Shown: positions 2,572-14,850 of the stretch, one piece after another
How the letters are laid out: each line of letters opens with the position of its first letter
Position numbering within the stretch: the first letter of the stretch is position 1
Virus record (IMG/VR): IMGVR_UViG_3300030103_003003
Location: 1-31,648 of that record
Strand: one strand, 5' to 3'
Length of the DNA: 31,648 nucleotides
Origin: a virus
Notes under the pieces: model-generated
What the model was told of the DNA's origin: nothing
Database searches by the model: none
Seen by the model: only the letters and a program-made list of their open reading frames with translations
Translations under genes and position numbers: made by a program

Positions 2572-2597
2572 AAAGCCCCTTTATTGGGGCTTTTTTT
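2572..2597 (+). terminator. Strong intrinsic terminator (GCCCC/GGGGC, T7)
   Basis: AAAGCCCC at 2572-2579, loop TTTATT, GGGGCTTT from 2586, then a seven-T run. The 24 bases from 2572 are identical to those from 14786, tying both locations to the same genome. Confidence 0.9.
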
Positions 2598-2812
2598 ATA
2601 CCCTACATTTAAAGCTTTTATTTATTGGACTTATTTTGTAATTCTTTTATAATTAGATTGGTTAGCTGTTTGAGATATAACAAACAAATCCATTTTAAGC
2701 CATTCTAAGGCACTATCTCAATTCCTCCCATACCTACCTATCACTTATATATTTAAACAGCTTAAATAAGCTTATATTAAACATATTATATATTAACAAA
2801 ACTTTAACATAA
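2598..2812. other. Gene-free stretch between terminator and promoter
   Basis: No credible open frame is present on either strand. Apart from the 20-base dyad at 2667-2686 and a C-rich patch (CCTCCCATACC) near 2725 that is unusual for this DNA, I see no recognisable element. It sits between the end of the small-gene cluster and the promoter before the structured segment, a usual place for regulatory binding sites. Confidence 0.5.
2667..2686. promoter_or_regulatory. Operator-like inverted repeat
   Basis: TGTTTG at 2667-2672 and CAAACA at 2681-2686 form a perfect 6-base dyad around an 8-base AT spacer. Length and symmetry match binding sites of dimeric HTH regulators. No regulator gene is adjacent; the nearest HTH protein is encoded at 26699. 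Confidence 0.45.
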
Positions 2813-2820
2813 TATATTTG
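2813..2820 (+). promoter_or_regulatory. Bacteroidota -7 promoter box TATATTTG
   Basis: TATATTTG matches TAnnTTTG exactly and points into the structured segment at 2849-3220. A clear TTTG at -33 is not visible, so it is a half match. A start of transcription near 2827 would give a leader of about 520 bases before the first tail gene at 3352. Confidence 0.55.
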
Positions 2821-2848
2821 TTTATATGAAATTATTTTAGTATTAACG

Positions 2849-3220
2849 TAAAACGGAGACCGAGGGGCTTAATGGCTCAATTCTATGAATTCAAACCGTT
2901 TTAAATAGGGGTACCCTAATTCCTACAAGGTAAAATTGATTAGGCTAACTAGGAAATTTTAGTAGAAATGAAATAACTGCATTAAGGATGTAACTATGCA
3001 CCCCCTAAACATCTTTAAAATAAATAATAATGCAGGTAAGGTTGAATAACATTTGGGTGCTGACAAAAGATGATTAAAAGAGTAATGTTGCAATCACTTA
3101 ACTGACTTGATTTATCTGAACCAACTGCCTTACATTTGTGACAGAAGTTTAGGAACTTGCTAAGTAGATTTCCAACTACATTATGATAACTACAATATAG
3201 TGTTTTTGTTCAACCTATAC
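2849..3220 (+). ncRNA. Candidate large structured RNA or structured 5' leader
   Basis: This 370-base segment lacks long open frames but is dense in complementary pairs. There is an 8-base pair between 2849-2856 (TAAAACGG) and 2896-2903, enclosing hairpin 2879-2891. Hairpin 2906-2918 is TAGGG/CCCTA, and 2920-2925 pairs with 2950-2955. GCACCC at 2998-3003 pairs with GGGTGC at 3055-3060, and 3047-3053 pairs with 3084-3090. GTAAGG at 3036 matches CCTTAC at 3128, hairpin 3145-3158 is AAGTT/AACTT, and an 8-base closing pair joins AGGTTGAA 3039-3046 to TTCAACCT 3209-3216. Some pairs exclude each other or imply a pseudoknot. It follows a promoter box and precedes the tail operon. I do not recognise it as tmRNA, RNase P RNA, a group I or II intron, or a known riboswitch. 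Confidence 0.5.
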
Positions 3221-3261
3221 AACCAAAACAAGATAATTTATACATATTCTAAATAAGATAA

Positions 3262-3278
3262 TTGACATTTTTTGTCAA
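3262..3278. repeat. Short hairpin TTGACA/TGTCAA
   Basis: TTGACA at 3262-3267 and TGTCAA at 3273-3278 pair perfectly around five T. It has no following T run, so it is not an obvious terminator. It overlaps an inverted copy of the AGTTATC motif at 3252-3265 and lies 75 bases before the tail operon. Confidence 0.5.
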
Positions 3279-3323
3279 CAATACATACTTACTATAAAGC
3301 ATTGGTGGTACAAAACAATATGG

Positions 3324-3341
3324 TTTCAGTTATCTTATTAT
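3324..3341 (+). promoter_or_regulatory. AGTTATC-type leader motif, copy 1
   Basis: The 18 bases TTTCAGTTATCTTATTAT are identical to 14833-14850, and related copies precede genes at 10660 and 12756. An inverted near-copy lies at 3252-3265. Recurrence directly ahead of late genes suggests a late promoter part or a message-level element. Confidence 0.5.
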
Positions 3342-3351
3342 ATACAATTAT

Positions 3352-4068
3352 ATGGCTATAGTAGAACTAGAATTAAGAGTACCAGAAAAGTTAGCAGGTA
3401 TTAAGCTTAAACAGTATCAGGAATATTTAAAGATACAAAAAGAGAATGAAGAAACTGAAGACAAAGGAAACTTTCTTAATTCCAAATGTATTCAGATATT
3501 TTGTGGTTTAACATTAAAGGAATCTTATAACCTACCAGTTAAGATGTTTGATGGTGTATTAAAGCAAATAGGTAATTGCTTTGATGAACCTACTCCACTT
3601 ATAAAAGAGTTTAGTATGACTGGCTCTAATGGAGTTACTGTTGAGTTTGGTTTTATACCTCAATTAGATGAAATGACTTTTGGTGAGTATGTGGATTTAG
3701 AAAACTTTATTTCTGATTGGGATAACATGCACAAAGCTATGGCTGTATTATACAGACCTATTACTTTTAAAAAGAATGGAAAGTATAGAATAGAAGATTA
3801 TGATGGCTCAGATAAGTACTGGGAGGTTATGAAAGATGCTCCAGTAAATGTTTCTTTAGGTGCGATGCTTTTTTTTTATCGTTTAGGGAAAAAATTGTCA
3901 AAATATACGATGGATTATTTAATCCTACAAAAGCAAGCTCAGGAGGATTCCAAGTCGGAGATGGATTCGGGAAAAAATGGGGATGGTATCAATCAATTTA
4001 TGCTCTTGCTGGAGGAAAGGTATCAGGAATTAATAAAGTTACAAAAATTCCATTACACCAATGTTTAA
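3352..4068 (+). CDS. Tail assembly chaperone A, unshifted form, 238 aa
   Basis: This is the first gene of tail module A. The 238 residues start MAIVELELRVPEKLAGIKL, with a body of about 200 residues resembling tail-chaperone N-terminal parts in Bacteroidota phages (LNSKCIQIFCGLTLKESYNL; GEYVDLENFISDW). The last ~30 codons after the slippery region at 3969-3978 are low in hydrophobic pattern (DSGKNGDGINQF), while the -1 frame carries a convincing protein segment, as in lambda G versus GT. The short form alone would be the G-like product. Its role is to bind and hold the tape measure during tail assembly. It is preceded by the structured leader and the AGTTATC motif and followed by tail terminator and completion genes. 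Confidence 0.7.
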   Translation: MAIVELELRVPEKLAGIKLKQYQEYLKIQKENEETEDKGNFLNSKCIQIFCGLTLKESYNLPVKMFDGVLKQIGNCFDEPTPLIKEFSMTGSNGVTVEFGFIPQLDEMTFGEYVDLENFISDWDNMHKAMAVLYRPITFKKNGKYRIEDYDGSDKYWEVMKDAPVNVSLGAMLFFYRLGKKLSKYTMDYLILQKQAQEDSKSEMDSGKNGDGINQFMLLLEERYQELIKLQKFHYTNV

Positions 4069-5091: not shown

Positions 5092-6272
5092 TGTCAACAA
5101 TAATCAATTCAAGAAGTCCTTATTACTTTAAAGTATCTGATGCTAATTTAAACTCAGCTACAATTCAAATTTACATTTGGACTGGTTTATATTCAGCTAG
5201 AGTAGTTGGAGATTTAAAATATACTTTATCTAAAGAAGAAGTTGGAGATACTAATTACGTTGTATTTGAAGTAAGTGAGCTTGTAAGAGACTTTCTTGAA
5301 ACAGAATATGGTAATTACTCTACTGATACAATATGGACTGATATAGACACTACAATATACGATTCAGCAGGTGCAATAGTTCAAGTAGGTGGACAAGATA
5401 TAGTAACAAGCACATTTTTAGTTCTTGATGGTTATGGTTATTTTGAAGAGAACTCTAATCCTAGAACAAGCATAAACCCAACAGCTTCTTCATATACACC
5501 TCAAGTATTACAAGATAATTTAAACATATACTTTAACTCAGGTCAAGATATTAAAATTCCTGTATTTGCAGAAGCTTTATCTTATGTTACATTAACTTCT
5601 GCTGGTGGTGCAAATATAAATTGGGATGATGCAGATGAATTTTGGGATACTTATGATGTTAATTGGGGAGCAGCTACCACTCCAATACAAATAGTAGATA
5701 GTGGAAACTCTGACCAAAAAATTCAATATATAATATTAACTGACACCGAAAACTTACAAACAGGAGACAAGGTTACTTTTGTTAGCCCAGCTCCTCCAGC
5801 AACTGCTACCCAAACTACAGTTATAAATCTAATTTCTGTTGCAGAAGCAAAATACACTCCATTAAACATAATATTTTATAATAAATATGGAGCATTACAG
5901 AATATGTGGTTCTTTAAGAAGTCAACAAATTCAATAAATGTTATGTCTGAAAACTACAAGTCTAACATACTAGATTTAGATAATAGTGGAGGAACACCTT
6001 CTTATGTTATAAATAAACATCAAGAAAAAATATTTATGGTAAACTCAAGAGAATCTATAAGTGTAAGTACTGATTTTATAAGTGAAGAATATAATGAGGT
6101 AATAAGACAACTATTAAACAGTGAACAAGTTTGGGTTGATGATGGAACTAATGTATTGCCTATAAATTTAAAAAGTAAATCATTTGAACTTAAAAAAGGT
6201 GTTAATGACAGATTTGTTAATTATACTATATCTTTTGATTATGCGTTTGACAAAATAAACAACATTCTGTAA
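5091..6272 (+). CDS. Distal tail/baseplate structural protein A1, 393 aa
   Basis: The 393-residue, strand-rich, Ser/Thr/Asn-rich protein starts MSTIINSRSPYYFKVSD. The N-terminal ~130 residues look like a beta-sandwich (IQIYIWTGLYSARVVGDLKY; ELVRDFLETEYGNY). An Asp/Trp-rich insertion near residues 179-193 (NWDDADEFWDTYDVNW) is followed by a second strand-rich domain ending SFDYAFDKINNIL. Equivalent proteins stand between tail completion and adsorption genes in Bacteroidota phages and are probably the distal tail ring or a baseplate hub part. It overlaps both neighbours by one base, so it belongs to the same tail operon. Exact position in the particle is not known. Confidence 0.6.
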   Translation: MSTIINSRSPYYFKVSDANLNSATIQIYIWTGLYSARVVGDLKYTLSKEEVGDTNYVVFEVSELVRDFLETEYGNYSTDTIWTDIDTTIYDSAGAIVQVGGQDIVTSTFLVLDGYGYFEENSNPRTSINPTASSYTPQVLQDNLNIYFNSGQDIKIPVFAEALSYVTLTSAGGANINWDDADEFWDTYDVNWGAATTPIQIVDSGNSDQKIQYIILTDTENLQTGDKVTFVSPAPPATATQTTVINLISVAEAKYTPLNIIFYNKYGALQNMWFFKKSTNSINVMSENYKSNILDLDNSGGTPSYVINKHQEKIFMVNSRESISVSTDFISEEYNEVIRQLLNSEQVWVDDGTNVLPINLKSKSFELKKGVNDRFVNYTISFDYAFDKINNIL

Positions 6273-8482
6273 TGCAAAAAATAGTATTATATATAAAAAA
6301 TAGCGAAGGAGTTTTTAAGAGAATGGACATGTTTAATGATGAATCTGTTGTTCTTAAATCTCAAATACAAAATATTAAAGATGTAGGAAAAGTGTTTACT
6401 GATTTCTCAAGAACATTTACCCTGCCATCCTCAAAAGAAAACAACAAGCTATTTAAACATTATTATAATGAAGCAATAGAAAACGGTTTTGATGCTAGAA
6501 ACAAAAAAGAAGCAATAATAGAGTTAGATTTCTTACCTTTTAAAAGAGGAAAGATATATCTAAATTCTGTAAAAATGAAAAATAATCAAATTCATTCTTA
6601 CAATATAATATTTTATGGGAATACTGTAAGTTTAAAAGATTTGCTTGGAGATGATGAATTAAGCCTTTTGTCTGAATTAGATACTTATAAGCATGAATAT
6701 AACAATATTAATGTAAAAGCAGGACTAGAAAGTGGACTTTCTTCAGGAAAAATAATATATCCTTTAATTTCTCACACTAAAAGATTTTATTATGACTCAG
6801 CACAATCTTCTCCAAATTACAGCGGAAATTTATATTACAATACTACTCAAAATAATATAGGACTTTCTTTTGATGATTTAAAACCAGCAATAAAATGTTT
6901 AACTATAATAGAAGCTATAGAAAACAAATATTCTATATCTTTTACTAGAGACTTTTTTAGTACAACTCCATTTAGCAATTTATTTTTATGGTTAAGCAGA
7001 AACAAAGGTGCTGTTGGAGGAGATGAAAACCAAGAACAATTACTAACAAGAATATGTGGTGATTGGGCTTTCAATGGAACAGGAACGATAGGTTTTGCTG
7101 TTGTTAATGATACATGGACCGTAAGTACTAAAGATAATGATGAAAGGTTTCAGGCTAGTATAACAGTAACCCCTACTTCTGGTGGTCAGACTGTTCCTTA
7201 TAAAATAAAAGTTATTGATTATGAATCAGGGAATATTATTGGAGAAAGCTCTTTGGCGGCTGGAACAAAAACATTTACTACACAAATAGTTCCAAGTTTT
7301 GAGTTGGTCACATATAAAATTAAATTTATAATAGAATCTGAATCTACTCTTTCTTTTACTCCTCTTTTAGAATTAACTAAATATGTTTTAAATCCAGTAA
7401 CAGAACAAGTTATAAGTACGAGTTCTGCTCAATATGATATAGATGGAACAGGCAATTCTATAAGTACTGTTTCTGAAATATTAATAACAGAGAATGTTCC
7501 TAAAATAAAAATAATAGATTTCTTAACAGGATTATTTAAGATGTTTAATTTAACAGCTTATTATATTGATGACTATGGAGATGCTGATTATGGGAAGGTT
7601 TATGTGGATACTTTAGACAACTTTTATGCAGATGCTTCTAACAATCCTTCTGGAGGAAAAATAAACATAACAAAGTACGTTGATATATCGAATACAGAAA
7701 TAAAACCATCTATTCAATTTACTGAGCTAGACTTTAAATATCAAGAACCCTCTACTTTATTGTCAATAAATCACAAAGAACAGTTTAATAAGGTTTTTGG
7801 AGATGAATCATATAAACCAAATAATGTAGATAGGGGAACTCCATACGATATAGAAACTCCTTTTGAACACATGAAATTTGAAAGAATAATAGATAGCAAT
7901 AAAGCTTCCTCAAGTCCGTATAGCTCAATAACCTCACCTCAAGCCTATATAACAGACATTTTGTGGGGATACTCTGCTAGTGGAGAATTTGATACTGATT
8001 TAGATGCTATTCCTAAAACAGGAAACTATGAACCAACCTTAACTAAACCTCTTGTTTTTTATGCAATTCAAGAAACAGGATTAACTGCTGGTTCTGGTAT
8101 AAAATGGGTTTCTACTACAACTCCTTCTGAGATAACACAATATTATAGACCTTCTAACACAAACGAAGATGGCTCTTCTTCTACAGCTCCAGCACATACT
8201 ATAAATTTTAGTGATGAGATTGATGAATGGAATCTTATTAATTATGCTAACAGTGGATATACAAACTCATTATTTAAGAAGTTTTATGAGAGTTATATAG
8301 TAGATGTTTTTAATCAGTACAAGAGAATATATAAATTAAAAGCAAAGTTTCCTGCTGACTTTTTAATTAACTATAGACTAAATGATATCCTTATTATACA
8401 AGACAGGGAATTTACAATAAACTCAATAAGTACTAATTTAAAAGATGGTAAGAGTGATTTAGAATTATTAATAAAATTATGA
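6272..8482 (+). CDS. Tail hub/adsorption protein A2, 736 aa
   Basis: The N-terminus of this 736-residue protein matches a layout I associate with Bacteroidota phage tail-tip proteins: YIKNSEGVFKRMDMFNDESV, IKDVGKVFTDFSRTFTLPSS and FKRGKIYLNSVKMKNNQIHS. The middle (about 180-400) is a beta-rich, Ser/Thr-rich carbohydrate-binding-like region. The C-terminal part (about 410-736) has FLTGLFKMFNLTAYYIDDYG and a final RLNDILIIQDREFTINSIST, as in hub proteins. No enzymatic motif stands out. It likely forms the tail tip in contact with the cell surface, downstream of the 5091 protein. Its stop overlaps the start of the next small gene. Confidence 0.6.
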   Translation: MQKIVLYIKNSEGVFKRMDMFNDESVVLKSQIQNIKDVGKVFTDFSRTFTLPSSKENNKLFKHYYNEAIENGFDARNKKEAIIELDFLPFKRGKIYLNSVKMKNNQIHSYNIIFYGNTVSLKDLLGDDELSLLSELDTYKHEYNNINVKAGLESGLSSGKIIYPLISHTKRFYYDSAQSSPNYSGNLYYNTTQNNIGLSFDDLKPAIKCLTIIEAIENKYSISFTRDFFSTTPFSNLFLWLSRNKGAVGGDENQEQLLTRICGDWAFNGTGTIGFAVVNDTWTVSTKDNDERFQASITVTPTSGGQTVPYKIKVIDYESGNIIGESSLAAGTKTFTTQIVPSFELVTYKIKFIIESESTLSFTPLLELTKYVLNPVTEQVISTSSAQYDIDGTGNSISTVSEILITENVPKIKIIDFLTGLFKMFNLTAYYIDDYGDADYGKVYVDTLDNFYADASNNPSGGKINITKYVDISNTEIKPSIQFTELDFKYQEPSTLLSINHKEQFNKVFGDESYKPNNVDRGTPYDIETPFEHMKFERIIDSNKASSSPYSSITSPQAYITDILWGYSASGEFDTDLDAIPKTGNYEPTLTKPLVFYAIQETGLTAGSGIKWVSTTTPSEITQYYRPSNTNEDGSSSTAPAHTINFSDEIDEWNLINYANSGYTNSLFKKFYESYIVDVFNQYKRIYKLKAKFPADFLINYRLNDILIIQDREFTINSISTNLKDGKSDLELLIKL

Positions 8483-10624: not shown

Positions 10625-10644
10625 ATAAAACAAAACATAAATAT

Positions 10645-10661
10645 AAAAGTTATCATATTAT
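10645..10661 (+). promoter_or_regulatory. AGTTATC-type leader motif, copy 2
   Basis: AAAAGTTATCATATTAT runs straight into the ATG at 10660. It matches the 3324 and 14833 copies at most positions. Because it abuts the start codon, transcription starting downstream of it would not include the start, which favours a message-level role at this copy. Confidence 0.4.
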
Positions 10662-12692: not shown

Positions 12693-12715
12693 AAATACAA
12701 CAAAAACAAAACCAC

Positions 12716-12731
12716 AAAGTTATCAAGTTAT
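12716..12731 (+). promoter_or_regulatory. AGTTATC-type leader motif, copy 3 (weaker)
   Basis: AAAGTTATCAAGTTAT lies 25 bases before the scaffold ATG at 12756. It shares AAGTTATC with the other copies and then diverges. Confidence 0.35.
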
Positions 12732-12755: not shown

Positions 12756-13199
12756 ATGAAAGCTACCGATATCGTAGACAAATTTAAGAAAATCTTACTA
12801 TCTGAGACTGAAGAAAAAGTCGAAGAGATAGAAGTACAAGAAGAGGTTAAATTAGCGGAAGAAGAAATCGAAGAAGTGAAAGACGAAGTTTCTGAAGAAG
12901 ATGCAAAAGAAAAGGAAGAAGTTAAAGAAGAGGAAATGTATGCTACTAAAGAAGAACTTTCTAAAGCGATTGCTGAAATGAAAGCTATGTATGACCAATT
13001 AATGGAATCAATGAGTGATGAAAAATCTCCTGAAGTTCCAGAAGAATTAAAAGAGGAAGTTGAATTATCCTCTCAAGAATCAGAAACTGAGCCTATTGCT
13101 CATTCTCCTGAGTCTAATGTAGAAAAAAACAATATTCATTTGTATGGTAATAAAGGACCACAAACAATAATGGATAGAGTACTAAACAAAATTTCATAA
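12756..13199 (+). CDS. Scaffold-like acidic coiled-coil protein, 147 aa
   Basis: The 147-residue product is extremely Glu-rich between about residues 16 and 60 (TEEKVEEIEVQEEVKLAEEE), then forms a helix (KEELSKAIAEMKAMYDQLME) and a Ser/Glu-rich C-terminal segment ending TIMDRVLNKIS. An acidic, helical, disordered protein immediately upstream of the major capsid gene and downstream of the protease is the usual place and look of a capsid scaffold. Its C-terminal basic-hydrophobic tip could bind the capsid shell. Such proteins are removed by the prohead protease, encoded two genes upstream. The assignment rests on composition and position. Confidence 0.65.
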   Translation: MKATDIVDKFKKILLSETEEKVEEIEVQEEVKLAEEEIEEVKDEVSEEDAKEKEEVKEEEMYATKEELSKAIAEMKAMYDQLMESMSDEKSPEVPEELKEEVELSSQESETEPIAHSPESNVEKNNIHLYGNKGPQTIMDRVLNKIS

Positions 13200-14785: not shown

Positions 14786-14809
14786 AAAGCCCCTTTATTG
14801 GGGCTTTTT
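14786..14809 (+). terminator. Intrinsic terminator identical to the one at 2572
   Basis: AAAGCCCC, loop TTTATT and GGGGCTTTTT form a strong hairpin with a T tail. The 24 bases equal those at 2572-2595. It is preceded by two AAACATAG repeats (14755-14762 and 14772-14779) that resemble the loop of the 1341 terminator. Confidence 0.9.
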
Positions 14810-14832
14810 CTATATAAAACAAAACAGACACT

Positions 14833-14850
14833 TTTCAGTTATCTTATTAT
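14833..14850 (+). promoter_or_regulatory. AGTTATC-type leader motif, copy 4
   Basis: TTTCAGTTATCTTATTAT is identical over 18 bases to 3324-3341 and runs into the ATG at 14849. It is the only candidate control site between the terminator at 14786 and the portal operon. Confidence 0.5.

Follow-up and report, generated by a model that had tools for sequence, protein, structure and literature searches.

A conserved pseudoknotted candidate RNA beside the structural operon of uncultured phages, apparently read leftwards from a putative late promoter

The DNA analyzed here, referred to as the window, covers positions 1 to 31,648 of the 49,843-base virus record IMGVR_UViG_3300030103_003003. Near its left end, a rightward ORF ends at 2546 and is followed by an intrinsic terminator, and 3' of the segment under study, 2849-3220, lies an operon that matched a protease, a portal, a tail fibre, and a tape-measure protein. 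An earlier note on this DNA had described the segment as gene-free, and no ORF of at least 60 aa was present in it; a stop-to-stop run of 64 codons was found on the minus strand at 3018-3209. No tRNA or tmRNA was found in the window. The flanking features are as follows.

2572-2593, plus strand: intrinsic terminator closing the upstream rightward genes, called by a terminator scan
3352-4068, plus strand: first gene of the structural operon, whose homologs follow the RNA in related phages

The terminator sequence AAAGCCCCTTTATTGGGGCTTTTT is present twice, at 2572-2593 and at about 14786-14809, and each copy precedes a unit with the promoter motif described below. At about 2690-2790, repeated words like TTTAAGCC and CTTAGAAG are common to the homologs and are possibly protein-binding repeats or an origin. 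In the phage collection searched, the sole relatives of the proteins of ORF 3352-4068 and ORF 6272-8482 were those of two Nonlabens phages, P12024S and P12024L, with which they share about 28% identity. In P12024L, the homolog of ORF 3352-4068 lies directly after the large terminase gene, with no space for an RNA. No relative was found when the alignment of the ORF 3352-4068 family was searched against 84,980 species genomes. The host of these uncultured phages is likely flavobacterial.

The proposal of a structured RNA at this locus had started from five perfect pairings in the single sequence. Four were exact (2849-2856/2896-2903, 3039-3046/3209-3216, 2998-3003/3055-3060, and 2920-2925/2950-2955), while 3047-3053/3084-3090 was off by one, its true form being 3048-3053/3084-3089. 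Such pairings in one sequence were no commoner than chance and mean little alone. The segment contained 36 complementary 6-mers, whereas dinucleotide shuffles averaged 30.0 and 58 of 300 attained the observed count; the corresponding figures were 11 and 8.5 for 7-mers (77 of 300) and 3 and 2.1 for 8-mers (94 of 300). Similarly, there was no excess folding stability on either strand (folding z of 0.16 on plus and 0.04 on minus).

The queries used to collect relatives from IMG/VR were the protein of ORF 3352-4068, proteins taken from two relatives, an alignment, and a pair of DNA patterns; each protein scan contributed at most 80 loci, and the relatives in the set are the matches listed. Profile searches placed the segment upstream of the same gene, the homolog of ORF 3352-4068, in many relatives. 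Among the matches listed, 173 distinct loci had 500 nt or more ahead of that gene, and 70 of these carried the conserved core upstream of it. Because the set was gathered through similarity to core-bearing phages, with near-identical loci counted separately, this proportion is no natural frequency. In cultured phage records, the window segment as query gave short matches only, covering at most 7% of the query, and two other variants of the RNA gave none; no match for the RNA was found in plasmids.

Comparison of these cores gave the fold listed here, in which the percentages are cells paired and the helices are read on the minus strand.

2846-3182, minus strand: predicted structured-RNA transcript of about 335-340 nt, with the fold taken from homologs, a putative 5' end near 3180 from the promoter motif and a putative 3' end from element I
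3164-3167 with 3176-3179, minus strand: helix S2, 88.5% paired, double changes in 4 of 4 pairs, 95.0% in model rows; its loop holds one S1 arm
3152-3155 with 3170-3173, minus strand: helix S1, forming an H-type pseudoknot with S2, 90.9% paired, double changes in 3 of 4 pairs, outside the covariance model
3125-3127 with 3142-3144, minus strand: hairpin G, 100% paired, 99.3% in model rows
3033-3041 with 3096-3104, minus strand: helix D, 94.9% paired, double changes in 7 of 8 pairs, 92.9% in model rows, with one conserved non-pair
3048-3053 with 3084-3089, minus strand: helix C, 98.5% paired, double changes in 6 of 6 pairs, 98.0% in model rows; one arm of A and one of B lie in its loop
2998-3003 with 3055-3060, minus strand: helix A, crossing C and D, held out of the model, 72.6% paired on MAFFT columns, where its register is uncertain
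3010-3016 with 3066-3072, minus strand: helix B, crossing C and D, held out of the model, 71-73% paired on MAFFT columns, where its register is uncertain

From 5' to 3' on the minus strand, the order is the S2/S1 pseudoknot, hairpin G, and helix D (9 nt, one non-pair) around helix C (6 bp), from which D is separated by a 6x6 internal loop. The B and A segments in the C loop pair with the strand beyond D. Helix C was maintained through variants that include AACATT/AATGTT, ATTACT/AGTAAT, GTTGGT/ACCAAC, ATCTGT/ACAGAT, and GATACT/AGTATC. In a plus-read MAFFT alignment of 22 cores, made with no structure used, 85.0% of the cells were paired, 28 of 38 pairs showed double changes, and the covariation score was 0.544, compared with 0.204 (sd 0.013) in shuffled and at most 0.124 in slid controls. 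A second, minus-read alignment of the same 22 loci gave 87.5% paired cells, 29 of 38 pairs with double changes, and a score of 0.572 against 0.207 shuffled and at most 0.112 slid. The count of further pair types was not above shuffles, being reached in 392 of 500 for the plus-read and 85 of 500 for the minus-read alignment. Covariation above both shuffled and slid controls, the general mark of a structured noncoding RNA, was thus found in the homologs, as the earlier note had proposed to check, and its proposal of a large, structured, pseudoknotted noncoding RNA is borne out to that extent. On the evidence of these alignments, the core has a real structured RNA-like fold of seven covarying helices, some of them pseudoknotted.

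The distribution of the fold was followed with descriptors and a covariance model. The descriptor of D and C, applied to both strands, matched 92 places, and 89 of them also had the A partner and CCAA downstream, with some contigs present more than once. With CCAA required, the wobbles of both strands treated alike, and an enlarged locus set, 125 matches in 26 variants were obtained. The covariance model, which was limited to S2, G, D, and C, detected the core in all 52 loci selected for having it (E <= 1e-5). Among 38 loci mostly picked as lacking a clear core, it confirmed the divergent cores of L257 and L147, first seen by profile search, and added four fragments. Among 40 mostly new loci, it found nine new contigs (L318, L337, L338, L350, L351, L354, L359, L373, and L376), and its four further matches there were already known contigs. 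In the more distant loci L040, L043, L056, L061, L071, and L072 it had no match up to E = 1. The 51 distinct model rows had 95.7% of cells paired and double changes in 20 of 21 pairs, in an alignment fitted to those helices. A coding explanation was also checked: the frame of the 3018-3209 run was open in 6 of 52 cores and each other frame in 0 of 52, so that no frame is conserved.

Since helices A and B were undercounted on MAFFT columns, they were tested by permutation over the 26 variants. For the held-out A, the longest complement between loop and outside strand averaged 6.35 nt, compared with 4.38 between differing variants; for the held-out B it averaged 7.38 nt, compared with 5.10. The observed sums were reached in 0 of 10,000 permutations, by a statistic that ignores kinship. 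Helix B was weak in L232 and L272, where the longest perfect run was 4. Two of the five pairings named at the outset therefore correspond to conserved helices, A and C. The arms 2849-2856/2896-2903, which belong to a separate element described below, showed consistent changes by eye only. The pairing 3039-3046/3209-3216 lies outside the conserved fold, and its arm 3209-3216 overlaps the start of a promoter motif at 3185-3209; 2920-2925/2950-2955 sits in a variable stretch, with one pair altered on both sides in L004. The mutually exclusive pairings had also been taken to suggest a switch or a pseudoknot. We found no support for the switch: A and B covary together with the helices they cross, and this fits a pseudoknot.

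The strand of the RNA was approached through a promoter motif, ACAAAA-N11..14-GTTATC, which has five copies in the window against 0.03 expected.

3185-3209, minus strand: putative late promoter, leftward, ACAAAA-N13-GTTATC, the sole minus copy in the record, at the core's edge
3310-3334, plus strand: putative late promoter, rightward, before the structural operon, ending 17 nt before the ATG at 3352
10630-10654, plus strand: motif copy ending 5 nt before the ORF start at 10660
12700-12724, plus strand: motif copy ending 31 nt before the ORF start at 12756
14819-14843, plus strand: motif copy ending 5 nt before the ORF start at 14849

The whole 49.8-kb record has four forward copies and one reverse copy, and a reversed control had none. 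The ATGs at 10660 and 14849 come only 5 nt after GTTATC, so that leaderless mRNAs are probable there. A somewhat looser motif had 37 copies in 22 core-bearing loci, of which 21 were before ORF starts, 14 were on the minus strand at the core's edge, and 2 were elsewhere on the plus strand; no other minus copies were found in those loci. The looser motif was missed on the minus strand in 8 of the 22, namely L022, L054, L140, and L154, where weaker forms are present, and L338, L359, L373, and L376; in L359, L373, and L376 it was unmatched on both strands. By loose patterns, GTTAT[CA] or a similar word stood near the gene in 66 of the 70 core-bearing loci, and a minus copy was present in 59 and missed in 11. 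The loose minus pattern, the only one for which a chance rate is given, matched 2.8% of shuffled regions (96 of 3,460). Of the 103 other loci, 42 had a plus copy and 22 had a minus copy, while 58 had neither. Among 17 more distant loci (L040, L041, L043, L047, L050, L052, L056, L058, L061, L062, L064, L066, L070-L072, L075, and L077), 16 had no GTTATC or GTTATA within 75 nt before the gene, the exception being L062, with GTTATA.

The motif thus stands both at the 5' edge of the RNA and where virion genes begin, and we infer from its placement that it is the phage's late promoter. As the sole minus copy abuts the RNA, the RNA would be read leftwards from about 3180, and it thus apparently lies on the minus strand, divergent from the structural operon. 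The core was modelled first in its plus-strand reading, which was set aside in view of this promoter evidence. The earlier note had also read the segment on the plus strand, with a promoter box upstream of 2849; the evidence instead places the promoter at 3185-3209, on the minus strand.

Two words, GATAAC at the edge of the core and GTTATC ahead of the next gene's start codon, change jointly (GATAACT/AGTTATC, GATAACG/CGTTATC). They were considered as a covarying long-range terminal helix, which was dropped, the arms being two opposed copies of one longer motif; in 43 rows, with loci lacking a GATAAC-like word skipped, both words belong to that motif with similar spacing in both orientations. 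The complementarity and joint change of these words, and the fact that core-bearing loci (70 of 173) have the RNA immediately before the same gene, would also suit a 5' leader on the plus strand, controlling the structural operon in cis in the manner of a riboswitch or a translational operator. However, a promoter motif of the operon's own stands at 3310-3334, between the RNA and the gene, and the match of GATAAC and GTTATC is explained by two copies of one longer motif at a fixed spacing. In addition, the gap from core to gene in L100 is 2602 nt and is occupied by leftward genes, an operon that separates the two promoters; the RNA there retains a promoter of its own. Such a cis-acting leader is considered improbable.

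At the opposite edge of the predicted transcript lies a second conserved feature.

2847-2903, no strand assigned: element I, a boundary element with an A-tract, a hairpin, and a T-tract around the conserved words ATGAATTCA and ACGTAAAA

In 57 of 60 distinct loci, a regular expression matched element I no more than 1.8 kb from the core, at a median of 157 nt from helix D (57 loci), and single copies missed by the expression are visible in L127 and L227. It was doubled in 9 of the 14 loci displayed; since tandem copies share a base, a tandem count of 0 from the regular expression is an artefact. It was not called by the terminator scan. The region 2847-2903 behaves as a separate, sometimes doubled boundary element, distinct from the core; situated between converging transcripts, it may serve to terminate both or be a site of processing. 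Matches to the expression in L044, L045, L077, and L078 were set aside as probably false; the intervening genes there are mostly rightward. Seven loci without a detected core (L110, L129, L098, L176, L138, L145, and L173) carry element I, doubled in five of them, followed by leftward genes, which in L145 include the large terminase.

Wobble pairs were also considered. In RNA helices, G.U pairs are expected to outnumber A.C, and in the 26 variants of D and C the G.T and A.C mismatches numbered 7 each, so the wobbles give no strand and are oddly few for an RNA. A hand tally had leaned toward the minus strand; the systematic count was 7 vs 7, and this line of evidence was left unused. Rare wobbles, equal on both strands, are a point in favor of a DNA-level element, such as a replication origin or a packaging or recombination site, folding as single-stranded DNA. 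The conserved boundary element with its doubling, and the GIY-YIG genes inserted beside it in four loci tested, would fit this as well. We nevertheless give it little credence, because the core is tightly linked in one orientation to the promoter motif and the fold begins at the expected transcript start.

The slot occupied by the RNA holds other genes in several phages. Among 13 slot loci examined, L159 had no ORF of 80 aa in the slot, and the slot ORFs were leftward in eight (L148, L191, L022, L123, L262, L100, L176, and L129, with element I in L262 identified by regular expression only); the remaining four were L044, L045, L077, and L078, set aside above. GIY-YIG genes adjoin element I in L022, L018, L021, and L123, all leftward and thus in sense with the predicted RNA, as would be expected of a ribozyme or an intron-like mobile RNA with homing endonuclease genes in its loops. 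This reading is judged very unlikely, since no Rfam ribozyme or intron matched and the element is intergenic, with no exons on either side, both in the window and in the homologous loci examined. Moreover, the L022 endonuclease gene is outside the core, between it and element I, and the covariance model did not find the core in L018 or L021. The L022 gene, being downstream of the core on the predicted transcript, might instead point to a leader controlling leftward genes. In the window and most loci, however, the distance from the core to element I is too short for a gene of any size, and the leftward operon of L100 lies upstream of the RNA's promoter rather than after the RNA, making such a leader highly improbable.

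Taken together, the reading we prefer, with a probability of roughly 60%, is that the locus encodes a stand-alone structured noncoding RNA of about 335 nt, transcribed leftwards from a late promoter directed away from the structural operon, and ending at or near element I. The promoter copy at 3185-3209 would start a minus-strand transcript near 3180, which would run leftwards to element I or its vicinity and would be made late, together with the virion proteins. Its 5' end is predicted to fold as the S1/S2 H-type pseudoknot, and the loop segments A and B of the D/C hairpin would pair with the outside strand. As for function, our guess, held tentatively and as possible rather than probable, is that the RNA acts in trans, as a folded RNA or an RNA-protein particle in virion assembly or at the end of infection, and not by regulating a neighbor, much as a late, stand-alone role is supposed for GOLLD and ROOL. 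A more speculative and rather unlikely extension is that it belongs to a new class of late phage RNAs in which A and/or B form between molecules, building an RNA or RNA-protein ring or cage. This would take part in packaging or virion assembly across a large group of phages that are uncultured and probably flavobacterial, with sister phages carrying other folds in the same late-promoter slot.

Other sequences were seen in this slot. The same divergent promoter pair, with GTTATA, flanks another, shorter candidate RNA in L202, L205, L210, L215, L216, and L353, where a 5' helix is consistent by eye (GAATTTT/AAAATTC, GAATTGGA/TCCAATTC) and a conserved word like CTTAGGGTAACTATAC occurs. In L307, L191, and L349, a third kind of sequence follows the minus promoter, with a word near AGTGGGTAAG common to all, and may be another RNA in the same slot. 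The slot thus seems to hold different folds in sister phages, providing a natural comparison set. The present family, with strong comparative support and a predicted strand, promoter, and 5' end, adds to the few large phage RNAs of unexplained role. The motif shared with virion genes predicts a late, leftward, and abundant RNA and permits a clear genetic test. It also supplies a promoter motif for phages whose sole relatives in the phage collection searched are two distant Nonlabens phages.

No recognized RNA family had been seen at the locus from motifs, and Rfam agreed. Rfam 15 gave no family at cut-off over the window, and at E up to 10 over 2600-3360 there were just three weak snoRNA matches, far below gathering scores; in eight homologous loci, the five weak matches obtained all lay away from the RNA. 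GOLLD, ROOL, group I and group II introns, phi29 pRNA, and tmRNA were each considered as its identity and set aside for want of an Rfam match. In the published literature, searched mostly by listing, no description of this RNA or promoter was found. A 2023 survey by Fremin and colleagues reportedly catalogues candidate structured RNAs in viruses, and such catalogues could hold the present RNA as an unnamed candidate.

The phi29-like pRNA is a phage packaging RNA with interacting loops that binds the packaging motor. The RNA here is likewise a phage RNA with interacting loops, and packaging would suit late expression, but it is larger and has no Rfam match to pRNA. GOLLD is usually near tRNA genes, although this criterion is not strict; the present RNA lies beside the structural operon, in a window without a tRNA, and has about 335 nt, whereas GOLLD often exceeds 800. 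It is also smaller than ROOL, from which it again differs in having no Rfam match and no tRNA found in the window. GOLLD is characterized by an RNA-only nanocage and ROOL by a homo-oligomeric one. According to a recent report, GOLLD is a large pseudoknotted phage RNA with covarying loop-to-strand pairings that rises during lysis, and ROOL is phage-borne and ornate, with several pseudoknots and no known function (PMC12286853). The present RNA is like GOLLD in being a large, pseudoknotted phage RNA with covarying loop-to-strand pairings, and like ROOL in being phage-borne and ornate, with pseudoknots. Some of the loop-to-strand pairings derived from covariation in GOLLD and ROOL proved to be intermolecular (PMC12286853). 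By analogy, A and B may also form between molecules; within one molecule, an H-type pseudoknot is feasible too. Judged by Rfam, the RNA appears distinct from GOLLD, ROOL, group I and group II introns, and pRNA, and as far as can be told it resembles the ornate phage RNAs, sharing with GOLLD and ROOL the general kinship of kind proposed at the outset, that of large, structured, pseudoknotted, noncoding RNAs.
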